DNA of 33,554 bases from IMG/VR virus record IMGVR_UViG_3300050821_001043, positions 1 through 33,554 of that record; one strand, given 5' to 3'. This stretch comes from a virus. Under the pieces are notes generated by a model. The model searched no databases and was not told the DNA's origin. It worked only from the letters and a program-made list of their open reading frames with translations. A program made the translations under genes and the position numbers. Shown piece after piece: positions 15,093 through 32,271 of this stretch. Every line of letters starts with the position of its first letter. The first letter of the stretch is position 1.

Positions 15093-15157
15093 AGTAAGCA
15101 TGTATGAAGCGCAATTAGTAGTTTAAGACAAGGGTTCGACTCCCTTCCGATCCACCA
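15093..15157 (+). ncRNA. ssrA: Permuted tmRNA, acceptor piece (3' half)
   Basis: tmRNA rescues stalled ribosomes by acting as tRNA and then mRNA. This piece has the 3'-end pattern of tmRNA: TAAGCATGTA (15095-15104), then T-arm AAGGG-TTCGACT-CCCTT (15130-15146), acceptor strand CCGATCC (15147-15153) and ACCA. No 5' acceptor strand precedes it. Its partner GGGTCGG lies downstream at 15243. The helix P2 is formed by GCATGT (15098-15103) with ACATGC (15285-15290), and TAGTTTAA (15119-15126) with TTAGACTA (15262-15269). Hence the gene is circularly permuted, as in alphaproteobacterial and some cyanobacterial tmRNAs. Confidence is high because four independent pairings link the two pieces. Confidence 0.85.
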
Positions 15158-15242
15158 AGTTTAGTAGTATAATTTTATGTTATAACGGACAATAATAAAC
15201 AGGTTCGATTCCGGTTAATGTCAGGGTTGTTATAGCATAATT
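15158..15242 (+). other. Intervening segment of the permuted tmRNA
   Basis: 85 nt between the acceptor and coding pieces, expected to be cut out. TATGTTATAAC (15176-15186) pairs with GTTATAGCATA (15229-15239) with one wobble, making a stem that stacks beyond the tmRNA acceptor stem and could hold the precursor for processing. Inside is an orphan T-arm-like hairpin, AACAGG-TTCGATT-CCGGTT. Confidence 0.6.
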
Positions 15243-15480
15243 GGGTCGGTCATGGTTTCGATTAGACTAGATAAATGTTAGCAGACATGCAACTAGGCGA
15301 CTAGTTTGACAGCGCAAAACAAAAACTGCCGAAGAAATGACGCAGACGAACGCATTCATTGATGCTGCAAATTTTGACTTCGGTCAAAGCTTTGCAACCG
15401 TTAATGACGGCGAATTCGTAAAGGTCTAACCGAAGGGTTAGCCTGAGTCTGGCCCACTCGAAACAGAACGGGCCATTAAA
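15243..15480 (+). ncRNA. ssrA: Permuted tmRNA, coding piece (5' half with tag reading frame)
   Basis: Begins GGGTCGG (pairs with 15147-15153; the third pair is G.U, the alanine identity element G3:U70) and carries the tmRNA hallmark TGGTTTCGATT (15252-15262). PK1 is visible: AACTAG (15291-15296) with CTAGTT (15301-15306), and the loop GCG with CGC at 15313-15315. Twelve A-rich bases then lead to the resume codon GCC at 15328, the same spacing as in E. coli. The tag frame runs 33 codons to TAA at 15427, starting AEEMTQTNAF and ending GEFVKV. After the stop come hairpins CTAACC-GAAG-GGTTAG (15426-15441) and TGGCCC/GGGCCA (15450-15475). The 3' end is approximate. Confidence 0.82.
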
Positions 15481-21430: not shown

Positions 21431-21994
21431 ATGCTGGCGGCAGCTATTATTGTTTACTGCTCGAAAGTTTCTAATAATAACGTAAAACTATATGAACTTC
21501 CGCCATCCGTTACCGGTTGCGTATCTCCTCAAATATACGTAAAATGCGATGTATGTTTAAAATATATAATAATTACTAGTACTGAGATAGTAGACTTAAT
21601 TACAGCGTTTGCAGAAAAACACAAACATATAGAACTTGATCCGAACAAAGGATGGTTAATGGGCGAATTAGTATTTAGTAAAAGTTTTGACACGGCCCTT
21701 ACGCCATCTATTGATCAAGATACTATTAAACGTTTAGCCAAATACTCTAATTTTAACGTAGATGCCCAAGCTAGATCGGTTAACGGAAATTACGAGTATC
21801 GGCTAGTCTGCACAAAATGTAAAGAATACACTATCCAAGATATTAGTTTTCCACAGTGGCTTGCTAGATTAGGTTTTGAGGGAGAGGCTAATCCTGTTAG
21901 GGAGTTCTGCAAACAACACGCGCACGGAGTCACTGTGTACGTAGAAGATATAGTTGCCGAGGTTATTAACGGCAGAAAGTTTAGGAATGAATAG
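21431..21994 (+). CDS. Protein with duplicated CxxC...HxH zinc-type modules and GRKFRNE tail
   Basis: 187 aa, GAGGG upstream of ATG 21431. Two similar modules: VKCDVCLKYII...FAEKHKHIEL and LVCTKCKEYTI...FCKQHAHGVTV, each CxxC, ~25-30 residues, then (K/Q)HxH. The next gene's product carries a third module, so this is a repeated small zinc-binding unit. The last residues, EVINGRKFRNE, match a tail shared by several proteins in this phage. The function of the module is unknown. Confidence 0.75.
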   Translation: MLAAAIIVYCSKVSNNNVKLYELPPSVTGCVSPQIYVKCDVCLKYIIITSTEIVDLITAFAEKHKHIELDPNKGWLMGELVFSKSFDTALTPSIDQDTIKRLAKYSNFNVDAQARSVNGNYEYRLVCTKCKEYTIQDISFPQWLARLGFEGEANPVREFCKQHAHGVTVYVEDIVAEVINGRKFRNE

Positions 21995-22667
21995 TCCTTA
22001 TTTCAATCTACCCGTTTATGGTGAGACTTTGCCAACTTTTACCCCAGATCAGCAAGATATTTATAATCAGATACTAATGCTTTGCGGTCCTACCTATTAC
22101 TGCGAACCTCCCTACAAGACTGTAGCAGAGATTAGCAACTATACAGGATCAAAACGAGCATTAGGTATCTGCATGGCTGCCGTCAGTATACTAGAAAAGT
22201 TTAATGCAGAACCAGCTAGAAGACAGCACTTACAAAGTCAGATTAAGCTGTATCAGTATAATTTACAGGTAAACGACTTATTAAGTACCAACGGAGATTG
22301 GGGGGATTATAAGTGGAAAAGTCACCCTGACGCGGTTATACCGCTAAAACAGATGCAACAAGTAAGCATTCCCGGCGCATTAGGCGGTCTTCCGAAAAAA
22401 CTTAACAAGATTAATAGATACCTGATAGCATTTATTAGCGAGGCCAGTAATAGTAATGTGGTTAGTCACCAATCTGTTAGTGAGTATCAGGTAAGCCTTA
22501 TCTGCACTGTGTGTAATGCTACGTTTAGCTATGACGAAGATGCTGAGTCAGACTGGGCAGTAAATAGTGCTAGGGATTTTTGCCACGAACACCGGCATGT
22601 TAAAATACAGGTAGAATTAGAAATACCTTCTAACCCGGCAGTCCGGAGAAAGTTCAGGGACGAATGA
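21987..22667 (+). CDS. Protein with CxxC...HxH module and RRKFRDE tail
   Basis: 226 aa from ATG 21987, nested over the end of the previous gene; upstream in-frame starts lack a ribosome site. The N-terminal half (MNSPYFNLPVYGETLPTFTP onward) is helical with no known domain. The C-terminal module LICTVCNATFSYDED...FCHEHRHVKI is the same zinc-type unit as in the preceding protein. It ends AVRRKFRDE. The last ATGA overlaps the next gene. Confidence 0.74.
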   Translation: MNSPYFNLPVYGETLPTFTPDQQDIYNQILMLCGPTYYCEPPYKTVAEISNYTGSKRALGICMAAVSILEKFNAEPARRQHLQSQIKLYQYNLQVNDLLSTNGDWGDYKWKSHPDAVIPLKQMQQVSIPGALGGLPKKLNKINRYLIAFISEASNSNVVSHQSVSEYQVSLICTVCNATFSYDEDAESDWAVNSARDFCHEHRHVKIQVELEIPSNPAVRRKFRDE

Positions 22668-23134
22668 TAGAAACTATCAAATCTATTAACCTTGCCTGTA
22701 CGACTGGCGGTCATGATAAGGTTTATAACTTATGGGTTAACCGGATTGCAGGTGAGGCGGGTATAGCTCTTAAGTATGAAGTTGTCGCTGAATATGGTAA
22801 GCGATTAGGAGTTCTTAAAAAAATTATTAAGGGGAACTATCCGAATGCTCATCAGGCTGTGACAGCTTTTGACGATTTGGTAGATGAAAAGAAGAAGAAA
22901 GGCTACGTAGAACCCTTAAAAAACGATATAAAGTACAAGGTATCTATAACGAGTTCTAAGCCTCTTACACCGTTATATATACTTCCTAAGAAAGAAGAAT
23001 ATAAGGTTACTTTCAGGCAGGACAAACCGACTATTACCATACCTCAAGACGAATATTTAAAGTTATTAGCAGGGACGGTTCCGGTGGCTGTTCCTGTGAC
23101 TGTAGTTAATGGGAGGAAATTTAGAGATGAATGA
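22664..23134 (+). CDS. Hypothetical protein with GRKFRDE tail, 156 aa
   Basis: Starts ATG 22664 in the stop of the preceding gene. Helical N-terminal half, then two similar beta segments (DIKYKVSITSSKPLTPLYIL and KEEYKVTFRQDKPTITI), and the end TVVNGRKFRDE. The tail codons also contain GGAGG and the next start codon, so the tail region does double duty. Family unknown. Confidence 0.74.
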   Translation: MIETIKSINLACTTGGHDKVYNLWVNRIAGEAGIALKYEVVAEYGKRLGVLKKIIKGNYPNAHQAVTAFDDLVDEKKKKGYVEPLKNDIKYKVSITSSKPLTPLYILPKKEEYKVTFRQDKPTITIPQDEYLKLLAGTVPVAVPVTVVNGRKFRDE

Positions 23135-23429
23135 CATGATTGAATCTGAATTCAGAGAGTTTGAAAACTTTATGGATATGGCTAATTACTATCGGACCAA
23201 GGCATTCGTATTTGATACGCTTGAATCTGCCCATTGGTATCTGGTCTATACGGCTAATAAAGATATAAGTAATAATGAAAGGGATAGCCGTTTAGAAGCT
23301 GCCGGTATTATAGACAAATCTAGAACACAGCTATTAAGAGAATCTCAGGATCGTGCTATCGCCAAACACACTGTAAGAACTATAAAACTACTAGACCCCG
23401 TAAACAATACGTATAAAGAAAAATACTAA
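23127..23429 (+). CDS. Hypothetical protein, 100 aa
   Basis: The preferred start is ATG 23127 (MNDMIESEFREFENFMDMAN), with GGAGG 10 nt upstream inside the preceding gene's tail. A helical, charged protein, last of the tightly packed plus-strand run; a terminator follows at 23498. Not recognised. Confidence 0.72.
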   Translation: MNDMIESEFREFENFMDMANYYRTKAFVFDTLESAHWYLVYTANKDISNNERDSRLEAAGIIDKSRTQLLRESQDRAIAKHTVRTIKLLDPVNNTYKEKY

Positions 23430-24089
23430 AAATTATCTGCAATACCATATAACATCCTTCCTGTATATAATAACCCATATAATTGAATAAGGTTGGTTAG
23501 GAATCCTTAGAGTTACCTAGGGATTCCTATCAGTCTTTTTATCAGTCATTTAATAACCTTGTCAGGTGTTATTATGCCGGGACTGCTACGATGGCGCTGG
23601 CGACTAGGGCGTGGGTCGGTCACACCCCTTGGCAACTAGGGTTGGTTAGGGACTCCTATGATTCTAAAAGACTTAGAGCAACTAATAAACTAGTAGCTTG
23701 AGAATAGACTAATAGGATCACTGTCAGTCGATTACCAGAAGGCTATCAGCTTTCATATCCTATTGATTAATGGAGGGTTACCATCCGCTGTCAACATTTC
23801 TACATAAAGTTGATTTTCGCCTATTAGTCCACTTGGTTAGTCCACTATCAAATGTTACAAAGCGTAGCAGTAGACTGATAGCAGGATAGTCGAACCTATT
23901 AAAAATGGGAATGACTGATAGTAACTGAGCAATTGATAGGCCAATGGTTATTCATTACTGGCGTTATGTTCCTATAGTCAATTATTTTTATTACCGTATC
24001 GAATACGCTTTTATCCTTTGCTCGATTAGTGCATTTTCTTGTATACAGGTATAGGGATAATATGCTTTCATTATGTGCGGGAGGAAATT
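23430..24089. other. 660-bp non-coding stretch with dispersed repeats
   Basis: No gene is visible. After the terminator, short related motifs recur in both orientations: CTATCAGTC/GACTGATAG (23527, 23871, 23909), TATCAGTCA near 23542, CTATCAGC near 23743, GACTAATAGG/CCTATTAGTC (23706, 23821). GGTTGGTTAGG occurs at 23491 and again near 23641, followed by GAATCC or GACTCC. Iteron-like repeats in a gene-free area suggest a replication origin or regulatory region, but no initiator gene sits beside it. The pattern is imperfect and may be partly chance. Confidence 0.4.
23498..23540 (+). terminator. Rho-independent terminator after the packed gene run
   Basis: TAGGAATCC (23498-23506) pairs perfectly with GGATTCCTA (23521-23529), followed by TCAGTCTTTTT. 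It closes the transcription unit ending at 23429. Confidence 0.7.
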
Positions 24090-24293
24090 ATGAACCGTTT
24101 AGGTGTATGCTCCGATTGTCAAAAGTCTGGAATACTGTTGTATGAGGATTTAGGCGCACTATGGCTTACACAACACGAAGATTACGGCAATGGTTTGTGT
24201 GTAGGTTCCGATTGTGTGCCAGAAACAACTTACCCGCATACGTGCGAAGTGCCGTATTGCTTCGACTGTGACGTTATCGCAAGCAAACAGTAG
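24090..24293 (+). CDS. Cys-rich small protein, 67 aa
   Basis: ATG 24090 with GGGAGGAAATT upstream; longer frames lack a site. It has six cysteines: LGVCSDCQKSG, GLCVGSDCVPE, HTCEVPYCFDCDV. CxxC pairs fit a small zinc-binding protein. Function unknown. Confidence 0.74.
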   Translation: MNRLGVCSDCQKSGILLYEDLGALWLTQHEDYGNGLCVGSDCVPETTYPHTCEVPYCFDCDVIASKQ

Positions 24294-24302
24294 GGAGGAT
24301 AT

Positions 24303-24560
24303 ATGCAATTGACAGCACATCCAATAGCCTGCACTTGTGTAGGCTGCATGAGCATGAGACGAACGGCAATTGAGATAGGTCTAGCGCAACCGGGACAAAT
24401 AGTCCCTGACAGCTACGATGTAACGGGGTACAGCGTCTATATCAGCGGAACCCCTGTTATGCTGCTAGCGTCTATCATGAACAACGATACATTTACTTGG
24501 CAGTTTGAATCCCATGTTATTGACTCATGCATTGACGCCAGTAACCCTAACGACATTTAA
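24303..24560 (+). CDS. Hypothetical protein, 85 aa
   Basis: GGGAGGATAT upstream of ATG 24303. Begins MQLTAHPIACTCVGCMSMRR, with a C-x-C-x2-C group. The rest has beta strands (GYSVYISGTPVMLLASIMNN). Terminated by the hairpin at 24581. Not recognised. Confidence 0.72.
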   Translation: MQLTAHPIACTCVGCMSMRRTAIEIGLAQPGQIVPDSYDVTGYSVYISGTPVMLLASIMNNDTFTWQFESHVIDSCIDASNPNDI

Positions 24561-24580
24561 CAACGTTTACTAGCCTATTA

Positions 24581-24606
24581 AACCCTGATTACGGTCAGGG
24601 TTTTTT
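24581..24606 (+). terminator. Rho-independent terminator
   Basis: AACCCTGA (24581-24588) pairs with TCAGGGTT (24595-24602) and runs into TTTT. It ends the two-gene unit 24090-24560. Confidence 0.82.
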
Positions 24607-24624
24607 AGTGACTAATAACCGTTA

Positions 24625-24638
24625 TTAACTATAGTTAA
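24625..24638. promoter_or_regulatory. Operator-like palindrome, copy 1
   Basis: TTAACTATAGTTAA is a perfect 14-bp palindrome. Related copies are at 24735-24748 and 25545-25558; the last overlaps the -35 of the endonuclease VII promoter, which suggests a repressor site. Confidence 0.45.
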
Positions 24639-24734
24639 TAGTTCTATATAAATCATAGTTAACATAGCTCGGAACATACCTTAGCAATCCGATTGCCAAA
24701 CTGATAGAATCGACAAACTATCTCAACTATTTTG

Positions 24735-24748
24735 TTAACTATGATTAA
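24735..24748. promoter_or_regulatory. Operator-like palindrome, copy 2
   Basis: TTAACTATGATTAA differs from copy 1 at one position. It lies in the gene-free stretch with no clear promoter of its own. Confidence 0.35.
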
Positions 24749-25092
24749 TCTCATTACTCCAGTTTTGGAGTTTTCGGTCAATTCTAGGTTGCTCCGAGTG
24801 AACAGGTTTTTGTTACATTTTGTTTCATTTGATGAAATAAATCGCTTTATTTGCGGGTTTTCATATCAAAAAAGCTTGTTACATTTTGATAGTCGCTGAA
24901 ACCCCTATAAACATTGACGATTTACACTACTTTGAAAACGGTTTGTAATCAACAACTTACACACAAATACTGGTAGTTTAGCATATGCCTGTTCTTGGGC
25001 CTACAAGGGGGATAGGCGCGCTCCGAGTCATTTTATGAGGCTAGGATACGTCTAAAAACTAGTAAAGTGATTTACCTTGTAAAAGCTTAAAA

Positions 25093-25524
25093 TTACATAC
25101 CTATTAAGTCTAGTATTCTCATAGAGTTATACACATTCATTGGGTTTTCAGGCAATTTGCGCTCTAAATAGGCGACTGATTTTGTCAATATTGATACGCT
25201 GTCTTTAGCTGATCCGAGTACATTATTACAACTATGGCAAAGCAAACCGCGAACGGTATTCGTAGCATGACAGTGATCTACTACCAATCCGTTACGTTTG
25301 CCCGGACCCGGAAGCTTGGAGTCATTTGCATGTATGCCGCAAATTGCGCATCTATAGTCTTGTGCTTTGAGCAGCGTATAGTATTCGTCCAATGTAAGGT
25401 TGTAATTCTTTTCAAGGTTGTTAGCGAAGTGAGAACAAGTTTTGCACCAATATAGGCCGCTACCATATTGACGATACGTTGTAGGTTTTTGGCATACGTA
25501 GCATAGTTTAGAATTTTCGTCCAT
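25093..25524 (-). CDS. Recombination endonuclease VII-like nuclease
   Basis: 143 aa, a His-Me finger nuclease of the T4 gp49 type, which resolves branched DNA before packaging; stand-alone relatives also act as homing enzymes. Zinc knuckle CYVC...WCKTC at the N-terminus, then YRCAICG, LVVDHCHATNTVRGLLCHSC and NNVLGSAKD. DHCH holds the catalytic His and the following N the metal ligand. It stands alone on the minus strand in an intergenic area, as expected for a late-acquired mobile gene. Promoter and ATG are so close that the transcript would be nearly leaderless. Confidence 0.9.
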   Translation of the reverse strand: MDENSKLCYVCQKPTTYRQYGSGLYWCKTCSHFANNLEKNYNLTLDEYYTLLKAQDYRCAICGIHANDSKLPGPGKRNGLVVDHCHATNTVRGLLCHSCNNVLGSAKDSVSILTKSVAYLERKLPENPMNVYNSMRILDLIGM

Positions 25525-25529
25525 ACTCC

Positions 25530-25558
25530 ATTATACCACAAAAGTTAACCATAGTTAA
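25530..25558 (-). promoter_or_regulatory. Promoter of endonuclease VII gene overlapped by operator copy 3
   Basis: Minus strand: TTAACT (25558-25553), a 17-nt spacer, TATAAT (25535-25530), with TG before the -10 (extended -10). The palindrome TTAACCATAGTTAA (25545-25558) covers the -35. ATG 25524 is six bases past the -10, again giving almost no leader. Confidence 0.65.
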
Positions 25559-25559
25559 T

Positions 25560-25589
25560 AACCCCTGTCAGAAAATGGCAGGGGTTTTT
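25560..25589. terminator. Rho-independent terminator
   Basis: CCCCTGTC (25562-25569) with GGCAGGGG (25577-25584), then TTTTTA. It isolates the following AAA operon from upstream plus-strand transcription. Confidence 0.75.
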
Positions 25590-25591
25590 AC

Positions 25592-25620
25592 TTGCTATTA
25601 ATCTGTTTCTATGGTTTAAT
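25592..25620 (+). promoter_or_regulatory. Extended -10 promoter, TGGTTTAAT class, copy 1
   Basis: TTGCTA (25592-25597), a 17-nt spacer, TTTAAT (25615-25620) with TGG just before it. The same core ATGGTTTAAT recurs before 27473 and 28935. It drives the 54-aa gene and AAA ATPase. Confidence 0.65.
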
Positions 25621-25638
25621 CGTGTTTGAGGTTCTGCC

Positions 25639-25803
25639 ATGCGATTTATCGTCAAGATTGATTCGACTGGTAAGTTTTGGGTATTGGATGCGCTGAATTG
25701 CTATGAACCGATAACCAACACGTCTATGTGCTTAGTATCTGCAAAGTCACTTGCCGATACCATGAATAACCCCAAACATGTTTACCCTTATGGGTGGAAT
25801 TGA
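25639..25803 (+). CDS. Small hypothetical protein, 54 aa
   Basis: ATG 25639 with GAGG upstream. It reads MRFIVKIDSTGKFWVLDALN..., ending KHVYPYGWN; small, beta-rich. It is the first gene of the AAA operon, and its stop is 6 nt before the ATPase start. A conserved accessory of the ATPase is possible but unproven. Confidence 0.7.
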   Translation: MRFIVKIDSTGKFWVLDALNCYEPITNTSMCLVSAKSLADTMNNPKHVYPYGWN

Positions 25804-25809
25804 GGAAAA

Positions 25810-27366
25810 ATGGAATTTCTAACACAATTCAAGGCAGCGCGGAGGGTATCAACTCCATTGGTTGCCGTTCGCACGTTTGACGCTAAATCAACCATTGACG
25901 GGGTTAGGACGTTATTCGACGCCGATACTCTTCCCCCGTTCATCATTTGGGATTGCGCACAAGGTTTCAAAGTTGCTAATCAGGGAACCAAGAGCGCAAC
26001 CATTGCTAACGGTATTGTTAGCACGGCAATCCAAGCTTGCAATAGCGCAATCGAAGCAACTATAGACATTAAAGAAGCATTGCGTATTGCTGAATGTTTT
26101 AATGGTACGAATAACAATGATCCTATTGTATTCCTGTCAAATCTTCACTTGTTTTGGAGTGAGCGCGAGGTTATACAAGGGGTTTGGAACATTCGGGACA
26201 CGTATAAGGCGAAGGGTAATATGTTGGTTTTGCTTTGTTCTGCTGGCAGCATCCTGCCAACTGAGTTAACCAACGATATTCTTATCCTTGACGAACCTCT
26301 GCCAACGGTGGACGTATTGAAGAAAATCGTATTCGATACGTTTGAATTTGCAGGGGTTACTCCCCCGACTGATACTGTGATCGAAAATGCAGTTAACGCG
26401 CTAAATGGCTTGCCGTACTTTCCGGCAGAACAGTCTACGGCTATGTGTCTCACAGCAAACAAGAAAACGAAACTCGGAACGTTGGATATCCACGAACTTT
26501 GGGAGAGAAAACGTCAAGTTATCAATCAGACTCCCGGTTTAACTGTTTGGCAGGGTAACGAATCCCTTGACGATATAGGAGGATTAGAGGCTATTAAGAC
26601 GTATTTGACGCGCGTATGCGAGGGTAAAGGTTCGCCTAACGTGTTTATATTCTTGGATGAAATAGAAAAGGCATTTGCAGGAACAGGGACCGATACCAGT
26701 GGAGTAACAACCAAACTTACAGGAGGAATGCTCCAATGGTTGCAGGATAAGAACATACAAGGGGTTATCCTGCTAGGCGTGCCCGGAGCGGGTAAGACGC
26801 AAATTGCTAAAGCAATCGGCACGAAGTTTAATAAACCTGTAATAGCTTTTAACCTGTCTTCGATGGAGTCTAGTTTAGTAGGTTCGTCGCAATCGAACCT
26901 CCGCCAAGCGCAAGCTACTATCGATGCAGTCGGAGGTGGCAAGGTATTCGCAATTGCGACTAGCAACGGTATGGATGCGTTACCTGCTGAATTACTCGCC
27001 AGATTCCAATCTGGCACATTCTTTTTTGACGTTCCAACCAACGAAGAGAAAGAAAGCATATGGAAGATTTACCGAGCGAAGTATAATGTACCCGATAGTG
27101 AGCCGTTACCAGACACTACCGGTTGGACTGGTAGAGAGATTAAAGCTTGCGCATTGACAGCGTACAACCTAGGAATAACTCTAGTAGAGGCTAGTCAATA
27201 CGTTGTCCCTATCACAGACTCGCAGCAAGATAGGATTGAAAACCTCAAGCGCAATAGCTCTGGTAAGTATCTATCAGCATCGAAGACAGGAAAGTACCAT
27301 TACGAACCTGCTAGCGTGCCTACACACGTTCCGGAACAAGTAACCGGACGGAAGATGCGCGATTAA
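25810..27366 (+). CDS. Ycf46-related AAA+ ATPase with permuted motif order
   Basis: 518 aa, AGGAAAA upstream of ATG 25810. The N-terminal ~190 aa domain (FLTQFKAARRVSTPLVAVRT, ILDEPLPTVDVLKKIVF) is the inactive N-domain of Ycf46-like ATPases. Then comes DDIGGLEAIKTYL, followed by a Walker B segment VFIFLDEIEKAFAG (D283-E284), with TDTSGVTTKLTGGMLQWLQD after it. Only then does Walker A appear, GVILLGVPGAGKT (K329), with LVGSSQSNLRQAQ, sensor 1 FAIATSN (N386), LLARF and the lid domain. In ordinary AAA+ proteins Walker A comes first, so strand beta-3 has been moved ahead of beta-1. All motifs are intact, so it is likely active. Ends VTGRKMRD, a variant of the shared tail. Partners: DUF1257 and DUF2997 genes downstream. 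Confidence 0.88.
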   Translation: MEFLTQFKAARRVSTPLVAVRTFDAKSTIDGVRTLFDADTLPPFIIWDCAQGFKVANQGTKSATIANGIVSTAIQACNSAIEATIDIKEALRIAECFNGTNNNDPIVFLSNLHLFWSEREVIQGVWNIRDTYKAKGNMLVLLCSAGSILPTELTNDILILDEPLPTVDVLKKIVFDTFEFAGVTPPTDTVIENAVNALNGLPYFPAEQSTAMCLTANKKTKLGTLDIHELWERKRQVINQTPGLTVWQGNESLDDIGGLEAIKTYLTRVCEGKGSPNVFIFLDEIEKAFAGTGTDTSGVTTKLTGGMLQWLQDKNIQGVILLGVPGAGKTQIAKAIGTKFNKPVIAFNLSSMESSLVGSSQSNLRQAQATIDAVGGGKVFAIATSNGMDALPAELLARFQSGTFFFDVPTNEEKESIWKIYRAKYNVPDSEPLPDTTGWTGREIKACALTAYNLGITLVEASQYVVPITDSQQDRIENLKRNSSGKYLSASKTGKYHYEPASVPTHVPEQVTGRKMRD

Positions 27367-27411
27367 TCATCGAACGAAGTAAAGCGATTTATCTTCGCGG
27401 GAATAGGCATC

Positions 27412-27443
27412 ATAATCCCTCTAGACAAAACTAGGGGGATTAT
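27412..27443 (+). terminator. Hairpin between AAA ATPase and DUF1257 genes, enclosing a -35
   Basis: ATAATCCCTCTAG (27412-27424) pairs with CTAGGGGGATTAT (27431-27443), one wobble, loop ACAAAA. The T-run after it is weak (GGTTTAAT). It could be a partial terminator; the promoter -35 TAGACA (27422-27427) lies in its arm and loop. Confidence 0.5.
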
Positions 27444-27451
27444 GGTTTAAT
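27422..27451 (+). promoter_or_regulatory. Extended -10 promoter, TGGTTTAAT class, copy 2
   Basis: TAGACA (27422-27427), an 18-nt spacer, TTTAAT (27446-27451) with TGG. It gives a start near 27458, 15 nt before the AUU start codon of the DUF1257 gene. Confidence 0.55.
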
Positions 27452-27472
27452 AGGAAAGGATGGAGGTGTACT

Positions 27473-27871
27473 ATTTCAGCTTACAGTGAGAACAAAACAA
27501 GTTTCAAGGATACGGCTATACTCTGTGAAGCATTAGCAGAGTTAGGCTATTCGACTGTAGAGGTTCATGAAAAAGCAACGAACCTTTACGGTTATCATGG
27601 TGACAAACGTGCAGACCTAGCAAACGTTATTATTCGCCGTTTGCACGTTGGTTCGGCGTCTAATGACATTGGATTCAAACGGAACCTTGATGGGTCATAT
27701 TCTGCGATTATCTCAGAGTACGACAGTCATAGGCATAATGCCGAATGGATGCGCCAGCTAAAAGAATCGTACGGTAACAAGCTTGTACAGCGTAAGGCGA
27801 AGCAACTAGGTCTTCGCGGTTCACCGCAGAAAGTTAACGGTAAGACGGTTTACACTTACGTTAAGGCATAA
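27473..27871 (+). CDS. DUF1257 (Ycf35-like) protein, AUU start
   Basis: 132 aa. The protein shows the DUF1257 pattern: SAYSENKTSFKDTAILCEAL, ELGYSTVEVHEKA, then DIGFKRNLDGSYSAIISEYD and YGNKLVQRKAKQLG. In-frame coding similarity runs back to 27473, but the only start-like codon there is ATT, six bases after GGAGG; the first ATG/GTG/TTG in frame is TTG 27641, which would cut off the first 56 residues. Upstream stop is at 27422. DUF1257 and Ycf46-type ATPases occur together in cyanobacteria, plastids and other bacteria; the biochemical role is unknown. Confidence 0.82.
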   Translation: MSAYSENKTSFKDTAILCEALAELGYSTVEVHEKATNLYGYHGDKRADLANVIIRRLHVGSASNDIGFKRNLDGSYSAIISEYDSHRHNAEWMRQLKESYGNKLVQRKAKQLGLRGSPQKVNGKTVYTYVKA

Positions 27872-28549
27872 ATGAAAGAGATTAGTTTAACTAGAGGCAA
27901 AACCGCGCTAGTAGATGACAGCGATTATATCGTACTGTCTGTATATAAATGGCATGCGCGGTTTTGTCCTAAAAGCAAGAAATTCTATGCTGTACGGATG
28001 GCCACAGAAAATGGAAAGCGCATTGTTTACCGCATGCATTGGGCCATTATGGGCCATAAACGAATAGATCATAAAGACGGCAACGGGCTAAATAATCAGC
28101 GTTACAATCTTCGGCCAGCAAATACATTACAAAACAATCGGAATAGAGCTAAAGGTATTGGAAAGTATTCTAGCCAATACAAGGGAGTAAGTTTGCATGC
28201 ATGCGGTAAATGGTCGGCGCAAATATCCTTGCACAATAAGCAAAGATACCTAGGTCTTTTTGTGCTTGAAATTGACGCTGCAAAACGGTATGATCAAGAG
28301 GCTACTAAAGAGTTTGGAGAGTTTGCAAAGCTAAACTTTCCAGAAATGGAGAATATCATGGCGAAAATTGTTAAAATCACGGTAGACGAAAACGGAGATT
28401 TTACAGTCGATTTAAACGGGTTTAAAGGCCGTGGATGCGATGCCATCATTAAGGCATTCGGGGAAGAATCGACCATAACCAAAGAAACACACAAGCGGGA
28501 GTATGGCGAAAACGAACGTGCAACCAACGTGCAGGTAACAGGACGGTGA
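27872..28549 (+). CDS. HNH-AP2 homing endonuclease fused in frame to a DUF2997-like protein
   Basis: 225 aa. Residues ~1-100 are an HNH_3-type nuclease: YRMHWAIMGHKRIDHKDGNG then LNNQRYNLRPAN. Residues ~108-155 are an AP2 DNA-binding domain (SSQYKGVSLHACGKWSAQIS, then LGLFVLEIDAAKRYDQEA). From M163 (MAKIVKITVDENGDFTVDLN, GFKGRGCDAIIKAFGE) the sequence is a DUF2997-type protein, the usual neighbour of DUF1257. The endonuclease appears to have landed exactly at the 5' end of the DUF2997 gene. It ends QVTGR, a shortened form of the shared tail. Starts directly after the DUF1257 stop. Confidence 0.85.
   Translation: MKEISLTRGKTALVDDSDYIVLSVYKWHARFCPKSKKFYAVRMATENGKRIVYRMHWAIMGHKRIDHKDGNGLNNQRYNLRPANTLQNNRNRAKGIGKYSSQYKGVSLHACGKWSAQISLHNKQRYLGLFVLEIDAAKRYDQEATKEFGEFAKLNFPEMENIMAKIVKITVDENGDFTVDLNGFKGRGCDAIIKAFGEESTITKETHKREYGENERATNVQVTGR
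28358..28549 (+). CDS. DUF2997-like protein from a nested in-frame start
   Basis: 63 aa starting at ATG 28358. GGAG lies six bases upstream, inside the AP2/linker codons, so a free DUF2997 product can be made in addition to the fusion. The sequence MAKIVKITVDENGDFTVDLN and KGRGCDAIIKAFGEE fits the family's short two-strand, one-helix layout. Identification is by pattern and by gene neighbourhood. Confidence 0.65.
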   Translation: MAKIVKITVDENGDFTVDLNGFKGRGCDAIIKAFGEESTITKETHKREYGENERATNVQVTGR

Positions 28550-28552
28550 GCT

Positions 28553-28879
28553 ATGGACCATGTAACCCTAACAGTCGATTCAAACGGGGATATTAAATTC
28601 CTAGTATCCCCGTTGTCAGAGGGTTTTCTAGACTCTGATAGTACCGTTAAACGTGCATCGCACGTCGAACCTTGGAATCCCTTTATCCGTTGCGTATTCC
28701 ATACGCTTAGACTGTTTGGGGATACTGGCAGGGTAGCGGATTGGTCTAGACGTTGGTCTATCGACTGGCGAGTTAACCTCTCCCCTGTCAATGGTCCTAT
28801 CCTTCCGATAACCTTTACTAACCGTGCTACTGCAATCGAATTTGAGGTTAAATGGCTAGAGGATAATTTTCTTGCCTAA
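28553..28879 (+). CDS. Hypothetical protein, 108 aa
   Basis: ATG 28553, four bases after the preceding stop. Begins MDHVTLTVDSNGDIKFLVSP; the central part has Trp/Arg-rich segments (VADWSRRWSIDWRVNL) and the C-terminus ITFTNRATAIEFEVKWLEDN. The opening strand resembles the DUF2997-like opening (TVDSNGDIKF), perhaps a paired small protein. Not recognised. Confidence 0.72.
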   Translation: MDHVTLTVDSNGDIKFLVSPLSEGFLDSDSTVKRASHVEPWNPFIRCVFHTLRLFGDTGRVADWSRRWSIDWRVNLSPVNGPILPITFTNRATAIEFEVKWLEDNFLA

Positions 28880-28901
28880 CCTCATGCGGTAATGGTTTAA
28901 T
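28872..28901 (+). promoter_or_regulatory. Extended -10 promoter, TGGTTTAAT class, copy 3
   Basis: TTGCCT (28872-28877), an 18-nt spacer, TTTAAT (28896-28901) with TGG. It points at the 329-aa gene at 28935, with an expected start near 28908. Confidence 0.6.
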
Positions 28902-28934
28902 AGCAATGGCGATACATCGCCCAAAGGATGCGAT

Positions 28935-29924
28935 ATGAATGTAGCTGAAAAAACCGTTAATAAGTCTTCAATTGTCGAAACAACGGTATTCCTCCGGATT
29001 AGCTATGGAATACCGGGCAATACTCGCCGTGTCAGTTCGTCTCAAGTAGACGTTAAGTCAAACGAAGACGCATTGCCCAACGTTGACTTTGAAGCTTTGA
29101 GCGAAGATGAAAAGACAATTGCCAAAGAGAAGGCAAAGCGTATGCTCAAAGTCTCTAAAGAATTGCTTGAATCCCCCGAGCTAGAGGCTATCAAGAAAGC
29201 AGATGGCATTATGCGAACCTACATTTACAAGCAATGCCTTCCCTATACGGATATGGGAGTTATGATTCTCCCTTTGGGTCAAGACGGTTGGTTCGCGCAA
29301 TCGGTCAACGATAGGTTAGAAGCATATGCCGATGAACGGAAAGAATTAGTATCGGCATGTGTCGCTAATTACCCCGAGCGTATCAAGGATGCAGAGAAGC
29401 AACTTTCACCGCTTGGACTGTTTAATCAGTCCGATTACTTGTCAAAAGAGGAATTTGCAGCAAAGTTTTCGTTTAGCTGGCGCATGTTCTCTTTCGCCGT
29501 TCCGGAAAATCTTAAGAAAATCGGCAAATTTGCAGAAGAATCTGCCAAACTTGAGGAAACGTTCAAAGTAGCTGCAACGGAGATTACAGTTTTGATGCGC
29601 GAATCCCTGCATGGGTTAATGTCTCACCTTAAAGACGTTTTGACGCCTACTGAAGACGGAAAGAAAAAGCGGATTTTCGATAGTGCTGTCACTAACATTC
29701 AGGAGTTTCTTGACACGTTTTCGGCACGTAACATCACGAATGACGAGGAACTTAACACGTTGGTGGAACAGGCTAAAGCATTAATCAATCCGGGAGTGTA
29801 TGCTGATAAACTTCGCAAGGATGACTCATTCCGTGCCGATATACTAGCAGGGGTCGATAACCTGTCTAGTGATCTAGCAAAGTTGGTTGAAATAGTTCCC
29901 GGTAGAAAGTTTAGAGACGAATAG
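28935..29924 (+). CDS. Helical 329-aa protein with GRKFRDE tail
   Basis: Starts ATG 28935 with AAAGGATG upstream. All-helical and charged: ALSEDEKTIAKEKAKRMLKV, SVNDRLEAYADERKELVSAC, DYLSKEEFAAKFSFSWRMFS. Length and layout recall DUF3150-type proteins that sit beside MoxR/Ycf46-like AAA ATPases, but I cannot confirm the family by eye. It ends KLVEIVPGRKFRDE, although no gene follows; a strong terminator comes next. It is likely a partner or substrate of the AAA system. Confidence 0.8.
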   Translation: MNVAEKTVNKSSIVETTVFLRISYGIPGNTRRVSSSQVDVKSNEDALPNVDFEALSEDEKTIAKEKAKRMLKVSKELLESPELEAIKKADGIMRTYIYKQCLPYTDMGVMILPLGQDGWFAQSVNDRLEAYADERKELVSACVANYPERIKDAEKQLSPLGLFNQSDYLSKEEFAAKFSFSWRMFSFAVPENLKKIGKFAEESAKLEETFKVAATEITVLMRESLHGLMSHLKDVLTPTEDGKKKRIFDSAVTNIQEFLDTFSARNITNDEELNTLVEQAKALINPGVYADKLRKDDSFRADILAGVDNLSSDLAKLVEIVPGRKFRDE

Positions 29925-29941
29925 ATTAAACAATTAATAAG

Positions 29942-29981
29942 AATCCCCCTAGGTTTAAATAGCCTAGGGGGATTTTCTTTT
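29942..29981 (+). terminator. Strong Rho-independent terminator
   Basis: AATCCCCCTAGG (29942-29953) pairs perfectly with CCTAGGGGGATT (29963-29974), followed by TTCTTTT. It closes the AAA-associated gene set. Confidence 0.9.
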
Positions 29982-29988
29982 GTAGACG

Positions 29989-30090
29989 GCTCAGGGGCAT
30001 CCCACGACCTCCCGCAACGCTCAGGGGCATCCCACGACCTCCCGCAACGCTCAGGGGCATCCCACGACCTCCCGCAACGCTCAGGGGCAT
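29989..30090. repeat. 30-bp tandem repeat, three full copies plus a part
   Basis: The unit begins GCTCAGGGGCATCCCACGAC and ends CTCCCGCAAC. Copies start at 29989, 30019 and 30049 with a 12-bp remnant at 30079, identical to each other. It lies between the terminator and the tandem promoter region. The minus-strand reading frame through it is only a by-product of the 30-bp period. Confidence 0.92.
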
Positions 30091-30115
30091 CGATTTTAAT
30101 TCAGAGTTATCCATC

Positions 30116-30201
30116 TGGTACTTGACTATAAAGTTTTTACTGGTACTTGTGGAAAACTATTGAAAATAGCTGTTGACACTGGTACTAGTTATTGGTACTC
30201 T
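30116..30201 (+). promoter_or_regulatory. Promoter region with four TGGTACT repeats
   Basis: TTGACA (30173-30178), a 17-nt spacer and TACTCT (30196-30201) with TGG in front give the main promoter for 30224. TGGTACT occurs at 30116, 30141, 30180 and 30193. The last one forms the extended -10; the others could be operator copies or decayed tandem promoters (TTGACT at 30122 precedes the second). Confidence 0.6.
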
Positions 30202-30223
30202 TATTTCAGTGAGGGACAAAAAC

Positions 30224-30502
30224 ATGATTGTTAGTAAAGAATATAACGTAGGCTACGGTGGTACTTTCAGAAACGATGCATACGGTGATTGGAAAGCGGG
30301 TGACGTTGTTCGCACGTTTGACGGTCCATTCTGCAATGCTGTTATCTTAGGGTTTACTGATGATGGACTGGCAAAGCTTGCGCGTCCATACATTTATGTA
30401 TCCCTTCCGGGTATTGCTCCTAACCCATTGACAGGAATTGAGACATATATCGTTCCTGTTAACCTGTTAACGTTAGTTGAGCACGCAAGGATGGTCAGTT
30501 AA
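30224..30502 (+). CDS. Hypothetical protein, 92 aa
   Basis: ATG 30224 with GAGGGA upstream. MIVSKEYNVGYGGTFRNDAY, then GDWKAGDVVRTFDGPFCNAV and TYIVPVNLLTLVEHARM. Probably a small beta-barrel; conserved phage protein of unknown role. Longer upstream frame to 30173 is rejected because the promoter lies inside it. Confidence 0.75.
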   Translation: MIVSKEYNVGYGGTFRNDAYGDWKAGDVVRTFDGPFCNAVILGFTDDGLAKLARPYIYVSLPGIAPNPLTGIETYIVPVNLLTLVEHARMVS

Positions 30503-30511
30503 AAATAACAG

Positions 30512-30539
30512 TTGACAAAGTTTGATAACCTGCTATTCT
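30512..30539 (+). promoter_or_regulatory. Promoter for the small-gene set 30556-30960
   Basis: TTGACA (30512-30517), a 16-nt spacer, TATTCT (30534-30539). The first ATG is 17 nt further on, with AGAGGGAA as ribosome site. Confidence 0.62.
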
Positions 30540-30555
30540 AACGGTAGAGGGAAAC

Positions 30556-30684
30556 ATGAACATTCGACAACGTTACCGCCGTTACCGTTCTCGTTGCCGT
30601 GCTTATAACTGGCATTACATGCGCTTTCGTGAATGGTACGGCGCGTGCGCTAACATCCAACCGGGCAAATACGGATACGCTTGA
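30556..30684 (+). CDS. Arg/Tyr-rich micro-protein, 42 aa
   Basis: ATG 30556 with AGAGGG upstream. Begins MNIRQRYRRYRSRCRAYNWH; nine Arg in the first half and no acidic run, so it probably binds nucleic acid or an acidic surface. Ends GKYGYA. Directly behind a promoter, likely early and highly made. Confidence 0.65.
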   Translation: MNIRQRYRRYRSRCRAYNWHYMRFREWYGACANIQPGKYGYA

Positions 30685-30697
30685 AAGGAAAGTTAAC

Positions 30698-30805
30698 ATG
30701 TTCTCACAAATGACACGAAAGGAAAAGTTGCTGTCAATGTTTTTTATGATTGCTGCGCCTATCGTGGCAATTATCGGACTGGCAGCATTGGTAATCGGAC
30801 TATGA
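30698..30805 (+). CDS. Small membrane protein, 35 aa
   Basis: ATG 30698 preceded by AAAGGAAAG. MFSQMTRKEKLLSMFFMIAA then PIVAIIGLAALVIGL: a basic N-terminus and one long membrane helix. Role unknown. Overlaps the next start by ATGA. Confidence 0.65.
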   Translation: MFSQMTRKEKLLSMFFMIAAPIVAIIGLAALVIGL

Positions 30806-30960
30806 AACTCGCGCCTTCGCTCAAAGGACAGTTGACAAAGGCTGTCAAAACGTGCAACGATAACCGTACTAGGTTTTCGTCTGTTAAGAAAGCTTTCAGA
30901 AAGCTTTATCCGCCCGAACAAGCAAAGCACGCAACGCGCAAGTATCTGCAAACCATTTAA
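30802..30960 (+). CDS. Basic micro-protein, 52 aa
   Basis: ATGA overlap. MKLAPSLKGQLTKAVKTCND, then VKKAFRKLYPPEQAKHATRK. Lys-rich, helical, may bind nucleic acid. Last gene before the hairpin at 30980. Confidence 0.65.
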   Translation: MKLAPSLKGQLTKAVKTCNDNRTRFSSVKKAFRKLYPPEQAKHATRKYLQTI

Positions 30961-30979
30961 TTTTAACCAAAGCAACCTA

Positions 30980-31006
30980 GGGGTTATCAAGTGGTAACCC
31001 CATTTT
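30980..31006 (+). terminator. Weak terminator-like hairpin
   Basis: GGGGTTA (30980-30986) with TAACCCC (30995-31001), followed by ATTTT. It may attenuate rather than stop transcription, since the next gene starts 11 nt later without a clear promoter of its own. Confidence 0.5.
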
Positions 31007-31016
31007 AGGAGTTGTT

Positions 31017-31415
31017 ATGAAAATCTCCGTTAACTATGAATTTAACCAATACGATGTGTCAGTAACGGCAGCTAGCAAGGAACTAGCAAAAGCCTTGACA
31101 GAATGCGCTAGTGAGTATATGTTTACTGGTAACAGTACGACTCCTAACGTTGGTACCGTTTCTGAGATTACTATAGGACTGGCCGACAAGTCTGATACCA
31201 ATGTTGTTAAAGGTTTTATAACTCTTATCAAAGCGTATCATGGTATCGACTCCAATAAGATCAATTGTATTAGACTTTTGAGAACTGTTACTCGTTGGGG
31301 TTTGAAGGACTCGAAGGATTTGGTAGACTTCGCTATCGGCGCTACTGCCTATCCTCATACATCCTACCCCGATTGGATCACTAACGCTAAGTCTGACAAT
31401 GATAGCCCATTTTGA
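31017..31415 (+). CDS. Protein with ribosomal L7/L12 C-terminal-like domain
   Basis: 132 aa, TTAGGAG upstream of ATG 31017. Residues ~75-110 read AYHGIDSNKINCIRLLRTVT then RWGLKDSKDLVDFA, matching the L7/L12 C-terminal signature (KI..IK.VR..TG.GLKEAKDLVE). In L7/L12 this surface recruits translation GTPases. A phage protein with this motif could contact EF-Tu/EF-G or simply reuse the fold. The first 70 residues are an unrelated beta domain. Confidence 0.75.
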   Translation: MKISVNYEFNQYDVSVTAASKELAKALTECASEYMFTGNSTTPNVGTVSEITIGLADKSDTNVVKGFITLIKAYHGIDSNKINCIRLLRTVTRWGLKDSKDLVDFAIGATAYPHTSYPDWITNAKSDNDSPF

Positions 31416-31423
31416 GGTTAGCT

Positions 31424-31618
31424 GTGAACAAGCTATTAGAAGCTATTGACGAGTTGTATTGGATTGCCGATGATTCTAGGCTTTGCCGTGAGTTATCCGA
31501 AAAATGCTTAGAAGTCATTATCAAACTTGACACGATACGTCAAGAAGGTGTAATATCATTTCATTCAGCCGATTCGGACGTTTCTATCAGGATTGGCAGA
31601 AAGTTTAGGGACGAGTAA
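31424..31618 (+). CDS. Small protein with GRKFRDE tail, 64 aa
   Basis: GTG 31424 is preferred, with GAGG six bases upstream; a TTG at 31412 is also open. MNKLLEAIDELYWIADDSRL then LSEKCLEVIIKLDTIRQEG, a two-helix protein, and the tail VSIRIGRKFRDE. The stop is followed at once by the next ATG, and AGGGACGAG of the tail serves as its ribosome site. Confidence 0.74.
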   Translation: MNKLLEAIDELYWIADDSRLCRELSEKCLEVIIKLDTIRQEGVISFHSADSDVSIRIGRKFRDE

Positions 31619-32182
31619 ATGGCATACGAAGAGGCGTTGACAGCAACGGGCGCAATGGTCGAATTATACGAAACATTTGGTTCCTATCAGGGCGATTGGT
31701 GGGCAAAAGTTTTGTATAACGGTTCATTAGGATGGGTACATGGTACATATGGTTCTTGCTCTGGCTGTGACGCTTTTGAGAGCGAAGTTGGCTATTCTGG
31801 AAAAGACACTTGTGACGAGCATCGGTACGACTATCCTAAGCCGACTAACTGTGATGCTTGCGAAGTAGCTAAAAAAGATTATCAGAAAAGACTGGTAGAA
31901 TTCGGCAAGTGTTATCTTGAAAGTATCATGACGCAAGCTGAAGCTGAGAACGAAGCTGGCAAAGAGTTTGCATGGAAATATGACAAAGAAGCTGTCAAGG
32001 AGACGGTAAAGTTTTTACAGGATAATACCTGTGACGGGAAAATTTATTGGGTAGAACCTGCGCCGGAACCGGAAGACGACGAAGAGACTCTAGAAGCAAC
32101 TAGCGACGACTACGAAGATGACGGAACCAATGCCATAACAGTTAAACAAGTATTGAGCAACTTGATGAAGGATTACAGCTAG
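31619..32182 (+). CDS. Conserved phage protein with Cys pairs and acidic C-terminus, 187 aa
   Basis: N-terminal domain GDWWAKVLYNGSLGWVHGTY, GSCSGCDAFE and DTCDEHRYDYPKPTNCDACE with two CxxC pairs that fit a zinc site. The segment KRLVEFGKCYLESIMTQAEA is a conserved helix of this phage family. The C-terminus is acidic (PEPEDDEETLEATSDDYEDD) and stops after VLSNLMKDYS. A second open frame (-1) covering 32146-32271 continues with coding-like sequence to a GRKFRDE end, so the true C-terminus may be reached by a frameshift. Confidence 0.78.
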   Translation: MAYEEALTATGAMVELYETFGSYQGDWWAKVLYNGSLGWVHGTYGSCSGCDAFESEVGYSGKDTCDEHRYDYPKPTNCDACEVAKKDYQKRLVEFGKCYLESIMTQAEAENEAGKEFAWKYDKEAVKETVKFLQDNTCDGKIYWVEPAPEPEDDEETLEATSDDYEDDGTNAITVKQVLSNLMKDYS

Positions 32183-32271
32183 GACAAGTTTTAAAGTTAC
32201 CTGCAAAGTCTTTGGTACTTGATCTTACAACCATCTGGGAAGGTAAGGGAAGGAAATTCCGTGATGAATAA
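32146..32271 (+). CDS. Out-of-frame continuation ending in GRKFRDE
   Basis: A frame opening after a TAA at 32143 and overlapping the end of the preceding gene reads SIEQLDEGLQLGQVLKLPAK then SLVLDLTTIWEGKGRKFRDE. It has no ATG/GTG start with a ribosome site before residue ~20. The look is that of a C-terminal extension of the 31619 gene separated by one base, caused by a programmed -1 shift, a real mutation or a sequencing error. A stand-alone small gene starting at ATT or TTG is a weaker option. Confidence 0.5.
   Translation, partial: TSIEQLDEGLQLGQVLKLPAKSLVLDLTTIWEGKGRKFRDE

Follow-up and report, generated by a model that had tools for sequence, protein, structure and literature searches.

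A C-terminal peptide tail shared by an AAA ATPase, a DUF3150 protein and accessory proteins in a group of phages: a probable docking motif

Why do proteins of several families, encoded in one viral genome, end in almost the same seven residues? The question is raised by IMGVR_UViG_3300050821_001043, a complete viral contig record of 33,554 bases (hereafter the window, meaning this whole stretch of DNA), in which a preliminary description, made from the sequence alone, had pointed to the C-terminal tail GRKFRDE and its variants on at least six proteins. Translation bears out six such tails, all on the plus strand and written in differing codons. Accessory protein A (187 residues, 21431..21994) ends in GRKFRNE (tail at 21971-21991), accessory protein B (226 residues from the ATG at 21987, 21987..22667) in RRKFRDE (22644-22664), and accessory protein C (156 residues with a WGR domain, 22664..23134) in GRKFRDE (23111-23131). 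The AAA ATPase (518 residues, 25810..27366; Pfam AAA, 1e-14) ends in GRKMRD (27346-27363), the product of gene D, a protein of the DUF3150 family (329 residues, 28935..29924), in GRKFRDE (29901-29921), and accessory protein E (68 residues from a TTG start, 31412..31618) in GRKFRDE as well (31595-31615). Using GR[KR][FMI][RK] at the C-terminus as the strict pattern, we counted five open reading frames (ORFs) of at least 60 residues with the motif, the sixth tail being the RRKFRDE of protein B, and no internal occurrence. Chance would give about 0.02 for the ORFs of the window, given that AAA-carrying relatives have 20 internal occurrences per 1.33 million residues.

Homologues of the DNA polymerase, terminase and AAA proteins of the window are found in Tunturiibacter phage Tunturi_3 and in many soil and peat contigs. 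Tunturi_3 (PP885686) is a 97.6-kb podovirus with an acidobacterial host (PMC11924767), and the group to which the window belongs consists of soil phages whose hosts are probably Acidobacteriota. We compared 35 related records, most of them over their full length, and sorted them into 23 AAA-positive and 12 AAA-negative ones, several of the latter being fragments. On ORFs other than those of the module described below, the AAA-positive records harbour 40 strict C-terminal motifs, versus 1.5 expected from the internal rate, and the AAA-negative records harbour one, versus 0.35 expected. By eye, the protein with this single tag (in G020_2038m) is homologous to a zinc-binding-like family that bears tags. 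Reordered, non-overlapping versions of the motif yielded few hits (median 1). The exact GRKFRDE peptide followed by a stop was found in one contig out of 2.9 million in a whole-collection scan, itself from the same phage group, and it is therefore not widespread.

Two carriers of the tail are constant, including in distant phages and Acidobacteria chromosomes, namely the AAA ATPase and the product of gene D. The AAA protein of the window, used alone as a query, returned no matches, and an alignment-based search was required. The gene D family corresponds to DUF3150 (PF11348) by profile, with matches for 5 of 11 homologues (best 7e-6) and for two chromosomal copies over the cut-off, and the window protein alone does not match that profile. 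Its fold is like that of a DUF3150 protein in BFVD (Foldseek E 3e-14, template-modelling scores of 0.71/0.78). For distant relatives we used a looser tail pattern, with expectations derived from shuffles. The tail was found on 45 of 55 AAA proteins with a DUF3150 neighbour (7.2 expected), on 43 of 51 DUF3150 proteins (6.9 expected) and on 8 of 27 AAA proteins with no DUF3150 gene nearby (2.6 expected). DUF1257 and DUF2997 proteins were ruled out as tail carriers, with counts close to chance (2/35 and 7/45, respectively, with 3.1 expected for each). The VTGR at 28549, which had been listed beside the tails, closes a DUF2997 domain, and it is incidental because DUF2997 proteins of relatives carry the motif near chance level. 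The tail is also missing from annotated controls, i.e., the DUF3150 protein found in a MoxR/VWA setting (phage MinM2) and AAA proteins without DUF3150 (RHph_I4, Javan368). Of eight Acidobacteria genomes, five had one to three matches to the RKFRFD pattern and three had no match. The tail is missing from every non-module ORF adjoining the chromosomal modules, and we thus saw no sign of a wider family of tails on chromosomes.

That the peptide rather than the DNA is conserved, as proposed from the window, was borne out in Tunturi_3 and about 25 soil contigs. The wobble position of the first tail codon has near-maximal entropy, and the Arg residues come from both codon families. At the DNA level, identical pentapeptides agree at 73% of positions between genomes and at 80% within a genome, 74% being expected under free codon choice, and on these figures we ruled out that the tail is copied as a DNA cassette.

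AlphaFold2 models of the DUF3150 and AAA proteins, built with 45 and 47 homologues, respectively, have confident bodies (mean predicted local distance difference test scores, pLDDT, of 90.6 and 92.6), and the tail residues of both have pLDDT values <50, denoting predicted disorder. In these ends, the tail arginine R324 of DUF3150 is one of just two invariant columns among the 45 homologues. R514 of the AAA protein is conserved in at least 90% of the 47 homologues, and G513, R514 and R517 are invariant in 12 close ones. The tail is thus kept as a peptide in spite of diverging linkers, bodies and codons, and an invariant residue in an end predicted to be disordered would be a hallmark of a linear motif with a binding partner. 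Beyond the core, the residues vary widely; they are acidic in the window, and the DUF3150 protein of G006 has more than 20 extra residues.

The tails also follow local dialects, with GRxxRDE(V) in G001, GRKFK followed by EAL, KGL, EKL or PRI in G004, where GRKFK prevails in most tails, terminal GRRFR in G016, and terminal GRKIR throughout phage L238. In permutation tests, accessory tails resemble one another within a genome (p 0.0002) and likewise resemble the DUF3150 tail of that genome (p 0.0002); the corresponding value for the AAA tail is p 0.05. The fourth position is Phe in 42 of 49 DUF3150 and accessory tails versus 2 of 16 AAA tails (p 2e-7), the AAA proteins using Met, Ile or Val.

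Accessory carriers are diverse. The commonest is the zinc-binding-like family with CxxC and HxH signatures represented by proteins A and B, whose homologues in seven relatives (G001, G003, G004, G005, G006, G010 and G189) end in a form of the tail, with around 30% identity in their bodies. The bodies of the tailed proteins had been described as unrelated; this is so between families, but A and B share a C-terminal CxxC...FCxxHxH domain. Protein C was assigned to the WGR proteins by PADLOC (WGR_XIII, E 8e-8), with a Pfam WGR match (E 0.006) below the cut-off. Further carriers have a C-x-C...C-x-H signature, which resembles SWIM by eye only, a Pfam search giving no SWIM match for them, and several others are orphans. 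No homologue was found for protein E.

The motif is thus present on at least three non-homologous families, including AAA, DUF3150, zinc-binding-like, WGR and other proteins. From these sequence patterns, we propose that the tail is probably a C-terminal short linear docking motif of an AAA/DUF3150 machine, also borne by zinc-binding-like, WGR and other accessory proteins. The motif would consist of a G-R-[K/R]-hydrophobic-[R/K] core on a flexible linker. In the machine, a tandem AAA ATPase would be paired with a DUF3150 protein; DUF1257 and DUF2997 genes usually accompany theirs. Every tail would plug into the same predicted pocket, and the accessory proteins would be brought together by the machine, or by a partner of it, acting as a hub. 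The AAA ring itself is our preferred candidate receptor, a choice that we make tentatively and on three grounds: the tail persists where DUF1257 and DUF2997 are not found and vanishes without the AAA-DUF3150 pair; a DUF3150 protein in a MoxR/VWA setting has no tail; and the ATPase's own tail is consistently non-aromatic, with Met, Ile or Val for Phe, as expected of a placeholder. That tail might occupy the pocket internally and be displaced by those of clients, which could then be remodelled or recruited to phage DNA; the neighbours of the module in relatives point to DNA metabolism. The preliminary description had offered a phage-wide address or docking tag, with the AAA ATPase as one of several conceivable targets. 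The data favour this last option, and the docking part of the idea agrees with the peptide-level conservation, the disorder, the within-genome matching and the AAA/DUF3150 co-occurrence, but with few carriers per genome the tag is not phage-wide. More speculatively still, the phages might encode a recruitment code, in which a machine with multiple copies of one peptide pocket would take as clients or adaptors any proteins that gain the tail, and pocket and tails would change together, giving one dialect per phage (GRKFRDE, GRKIR, GRKFK).

Several observations weigh against a docking motif of the AAA/DUF3150 machine. Neither tail docks in cis in the AlphaFold2 models, and no tail is recognisable on some of the AAA and DUF3150 proteins that belong to the module. 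Chance alone gives 7/55 with the looser pattern used for distant relatives, several of the AAA genes scored as having no DUF3150 neighbour sit close to contig ends, and the absence of DUF1257 and DUF2997 from some loci rests on profile searches, which divergent copies could escape. The permutation tests and the comparison of the fourth position treat genomes as independent, although the phages are related. Finally, accessory tails frequently overlap a downstream start, and part of their conservation may therefore be shared with the start signal.

This last point leads to a reading of the tail as a by-product of translational coupling, in which GGNAGGAARTTYCGATGA, a Shine-Dalgarno sequence with an overlapping ATGA start, would by coincidence spell GRKFR and a stop in the upstream frame. 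We scored a tail as overlapping if it lay between -12 and +15 relative to a downstream start. By this measure, 29 of 36 accessory tails overlap one, 24 of these 29 with a Shine-Dalgarno-like sequence, and many end in CGATGA. However, overlap is seen in only 5 of 16 AAA tails and in none of 13 DUF3150 tails, and gene D of the window has no downstream start near its stop. The second codon of the tail is CGN in 29 of 65 cases, which destroys the AGG, the K-F-R residues are not needed for the signal, DNA identity matches free codon choice, and the enrichment is limited to AAA-positive relatives. We hold this origin of the tail to be highly improbable. The preliminary description had named as its own refutation a tail present only at downstream starts and conserved as DNA, which is not what the DUF3150 and AAA tails and the free codons display. 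Because overlap is common among accessory tails, occasional in AAA and absent from DUF3150, translational coupling is not where the motif comes from but a constraint that accompanies it on accessory genes.

Among other readings, we consider it unlikely that the tail directs proteins to a phage structure or compartment, such as the capsid or a replication site, with AAA and DUF3150 merely two of its cargoes. One peptide is common to several cargoes in encapsulin systems, as it is to the non-homologous carriers here, but tags are lacking in relatives with homologous portal and terminase proteins and no detected AAA, which argues that the receptor is not the conserved virion, and chromosomal copies of the module are tailed too. 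Very unlikely, in our opinion, is a degradation signal that would time the removal of proteins by a host protease, e.g., ClpXP. Basic C-terminal tags can act as ClpX signals, as in MuA, and some tails of G004 end in -AL or -GL. Nevertheless, the residues after the core vary freely, so that no fixed C-terminal end of the ssrA/ClpX type would be read, the ATPase itself is tagged, and the tail follows the module, not the host. The tmRNA-like gene of the window was ruled out as a source of the tail, the motif being missing from its reading frames. We give an equally low probability to a basic patch that binds nucleic acids and brings proteins to phage DNA or RNA. The positive core, the zinc-binding-like and WGR carriers and the SSB and helicase genes beside the module are in keeping with such a patch, but it would need no invariant Arg, no fixed hydrophobic residue and no genome-specific matching, and acidic residues follow the core in several tails.

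The docking motif that we favour has parallels in known systems. SSB-Ct and the clamp-binding C-termini of T4 proteins are short motifs at the end of flexible linkers, common to several proteins or read by a common hub, and as in the window, the motif is kept while linkers diverge; unlike them, the tail has neither DDDIPF nor a clamp box and is tied to the AAA/DUF3150 module. Proteasomal AAA ATPases end in an HbYX docking peptide on a flexible tail. The AAA protein of the window similarly has a short conserved peptide at its flexible end, but no Hb-Tyr-X is present, the residues beyond the core vary, and the peptide is found on many non-ATPase proteins. The docking logic thus appears to resemble that of these systems, with a different sequence and different partners, and the motif appears undescribed in the literature that we searched, where we found no paper on GRKFR tails in the present sense or on DUF3150.

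The AAA ATPase comprises a degenerate N-terminal ATPase-like domain and an AAA domain, and its fold resembles those of the tandem p97/Rix7/NVL ATPases. The DUF3150 fold has no significant match in the PDB, and no function can thus be deduced from its structure. The usual gene set is AAA, DUF1257, DUF2997 and DUF3150, in phages and in metagenome-assembled genomes of Acidobacteria (mostly Bryobacterales); in the latter, helicase, Gp157, radical SAM and SSB genes lie nearby. Such Acidobacteria genomes (L295-L309) harbour roughly one to three sets each, which, with these neighbours, suggests integrated or mobile islands. In our literature searches, we found no established function for DUF3150, DUF1257, DUF2997 or this type of AAA ATPase.

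In the window, the DUF1257 gene (27473..27871, plus strand; Pfam DUF1257 8e-11) codes for a protein with no tail. Its conserved start contains no ATG, GTG or TTG, and it apparently begins at the ATT at 27473, which follows a well-spaced GGAGG and fits the N-terminus of the family. The next gene (27872..28549, plus strand) fuses in frame an HNH/AP2-like domain of the homing-endonuclease type to DUF2997 (28346-28546), with weak Pfam matches to HNH_3 and DUF2997; in relative G010 (17918), an HNH-like ORF with a similar end adjoins DUF2997.

AAA genes also adjoin DUF1257 and DUF2997 genes in Ycf46/DUF1257 (Ycf35)/DUF2997 sets, Ycf46 being the putative label of the AAA gene, and in Rhizobium phage RHph_I4, where neither a DUF3150 protein nor such a tail was detected; the window set adds both. 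The profile libraries that we used gave no Ycf46 match for the window protein, just AAA and p97-like matches. A DUF2997-ycf35-fed7 cluster was reported in cyanobacteria (PMC4284462). The MoxR-DUF3150-VWA module of Synechococcus phage MinM2 resembles the window in that its DUF3150 gene adjoins an AAA ATPase gene, but the AAA type differs, a VWA protein is present, and MoxR and DUF3150 have no tail. In Tunturi_3, the genes for AAA (gp103) and DUF3150 (gp96) keep the order seen in the window, and their products end in DGRIIR and DRKFHLEGEEF, respectively, but no accessory tags were found there by the GR[KR][FMI][RK] pattern. The label HNH endonuclease given in GenBank to gp96 (L012 18899-19855) is unsupported by our analysis.

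A 41-residue open frame (32146..32271, plus strand) also ends in GRKFRDE (tail at 32248-32268), as had been pointed out. The sequence does read so; however, the frame has no ATG, GTG or TTG at its head and no homologue was found for it, and it overlaps the ribosome-binding site (Shine-Dalgarno sequence) and the ATG with which the gene at 32264 starts. We consequently excluded it from all counts. After the stop of the 31619 gene, an open frame continues to this GRKFRDE (31619-32271), and the gene end was possibly lost by a frame change; the 32271 frame may thus be the frame-disrupted end of that gene, or a coincidence. The homologue of the 31619 gene in G190 is shorter and leaves the matter unsettled.

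Elsewhere in the window, a permuted transfer-messenger RNA (tmRNA) gene lies beside tRNA genes at 15098-15372 (Rfam RF04321, 83.5 bits for a cut-off of 47; not called by ARAGORN). A frame tentatively aligned to its tag could encode AEEMTQTNAFIDAANFDFGQSFATVNDGEFVKV, which is long and does not end in LAA. Nine 18-bp repeats encoding VSGNAQ-type hexapeptides (left-handed beta-helix-like) reach the contig end (33391-33551), a second array has 30-bp repeats (29989-30091), and around 600 bases amid dense genes (23430-24040) are devoid of long ORFs, with no Rfam match.

The AAA/DUF3150/DUF1257/DUF2997 module spans diverse phages and bacterial chromosomes. Its seven-residue tail offers an experimental handle, as a peptide bait for the receptor, and a simple sequence rule to flag the likely partners of the machine, including small proteins otherwise devoid of annotation. 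Tail dialects that shift in concert inside one genome would constitute a natural system for studying the evolution of docking specificity.

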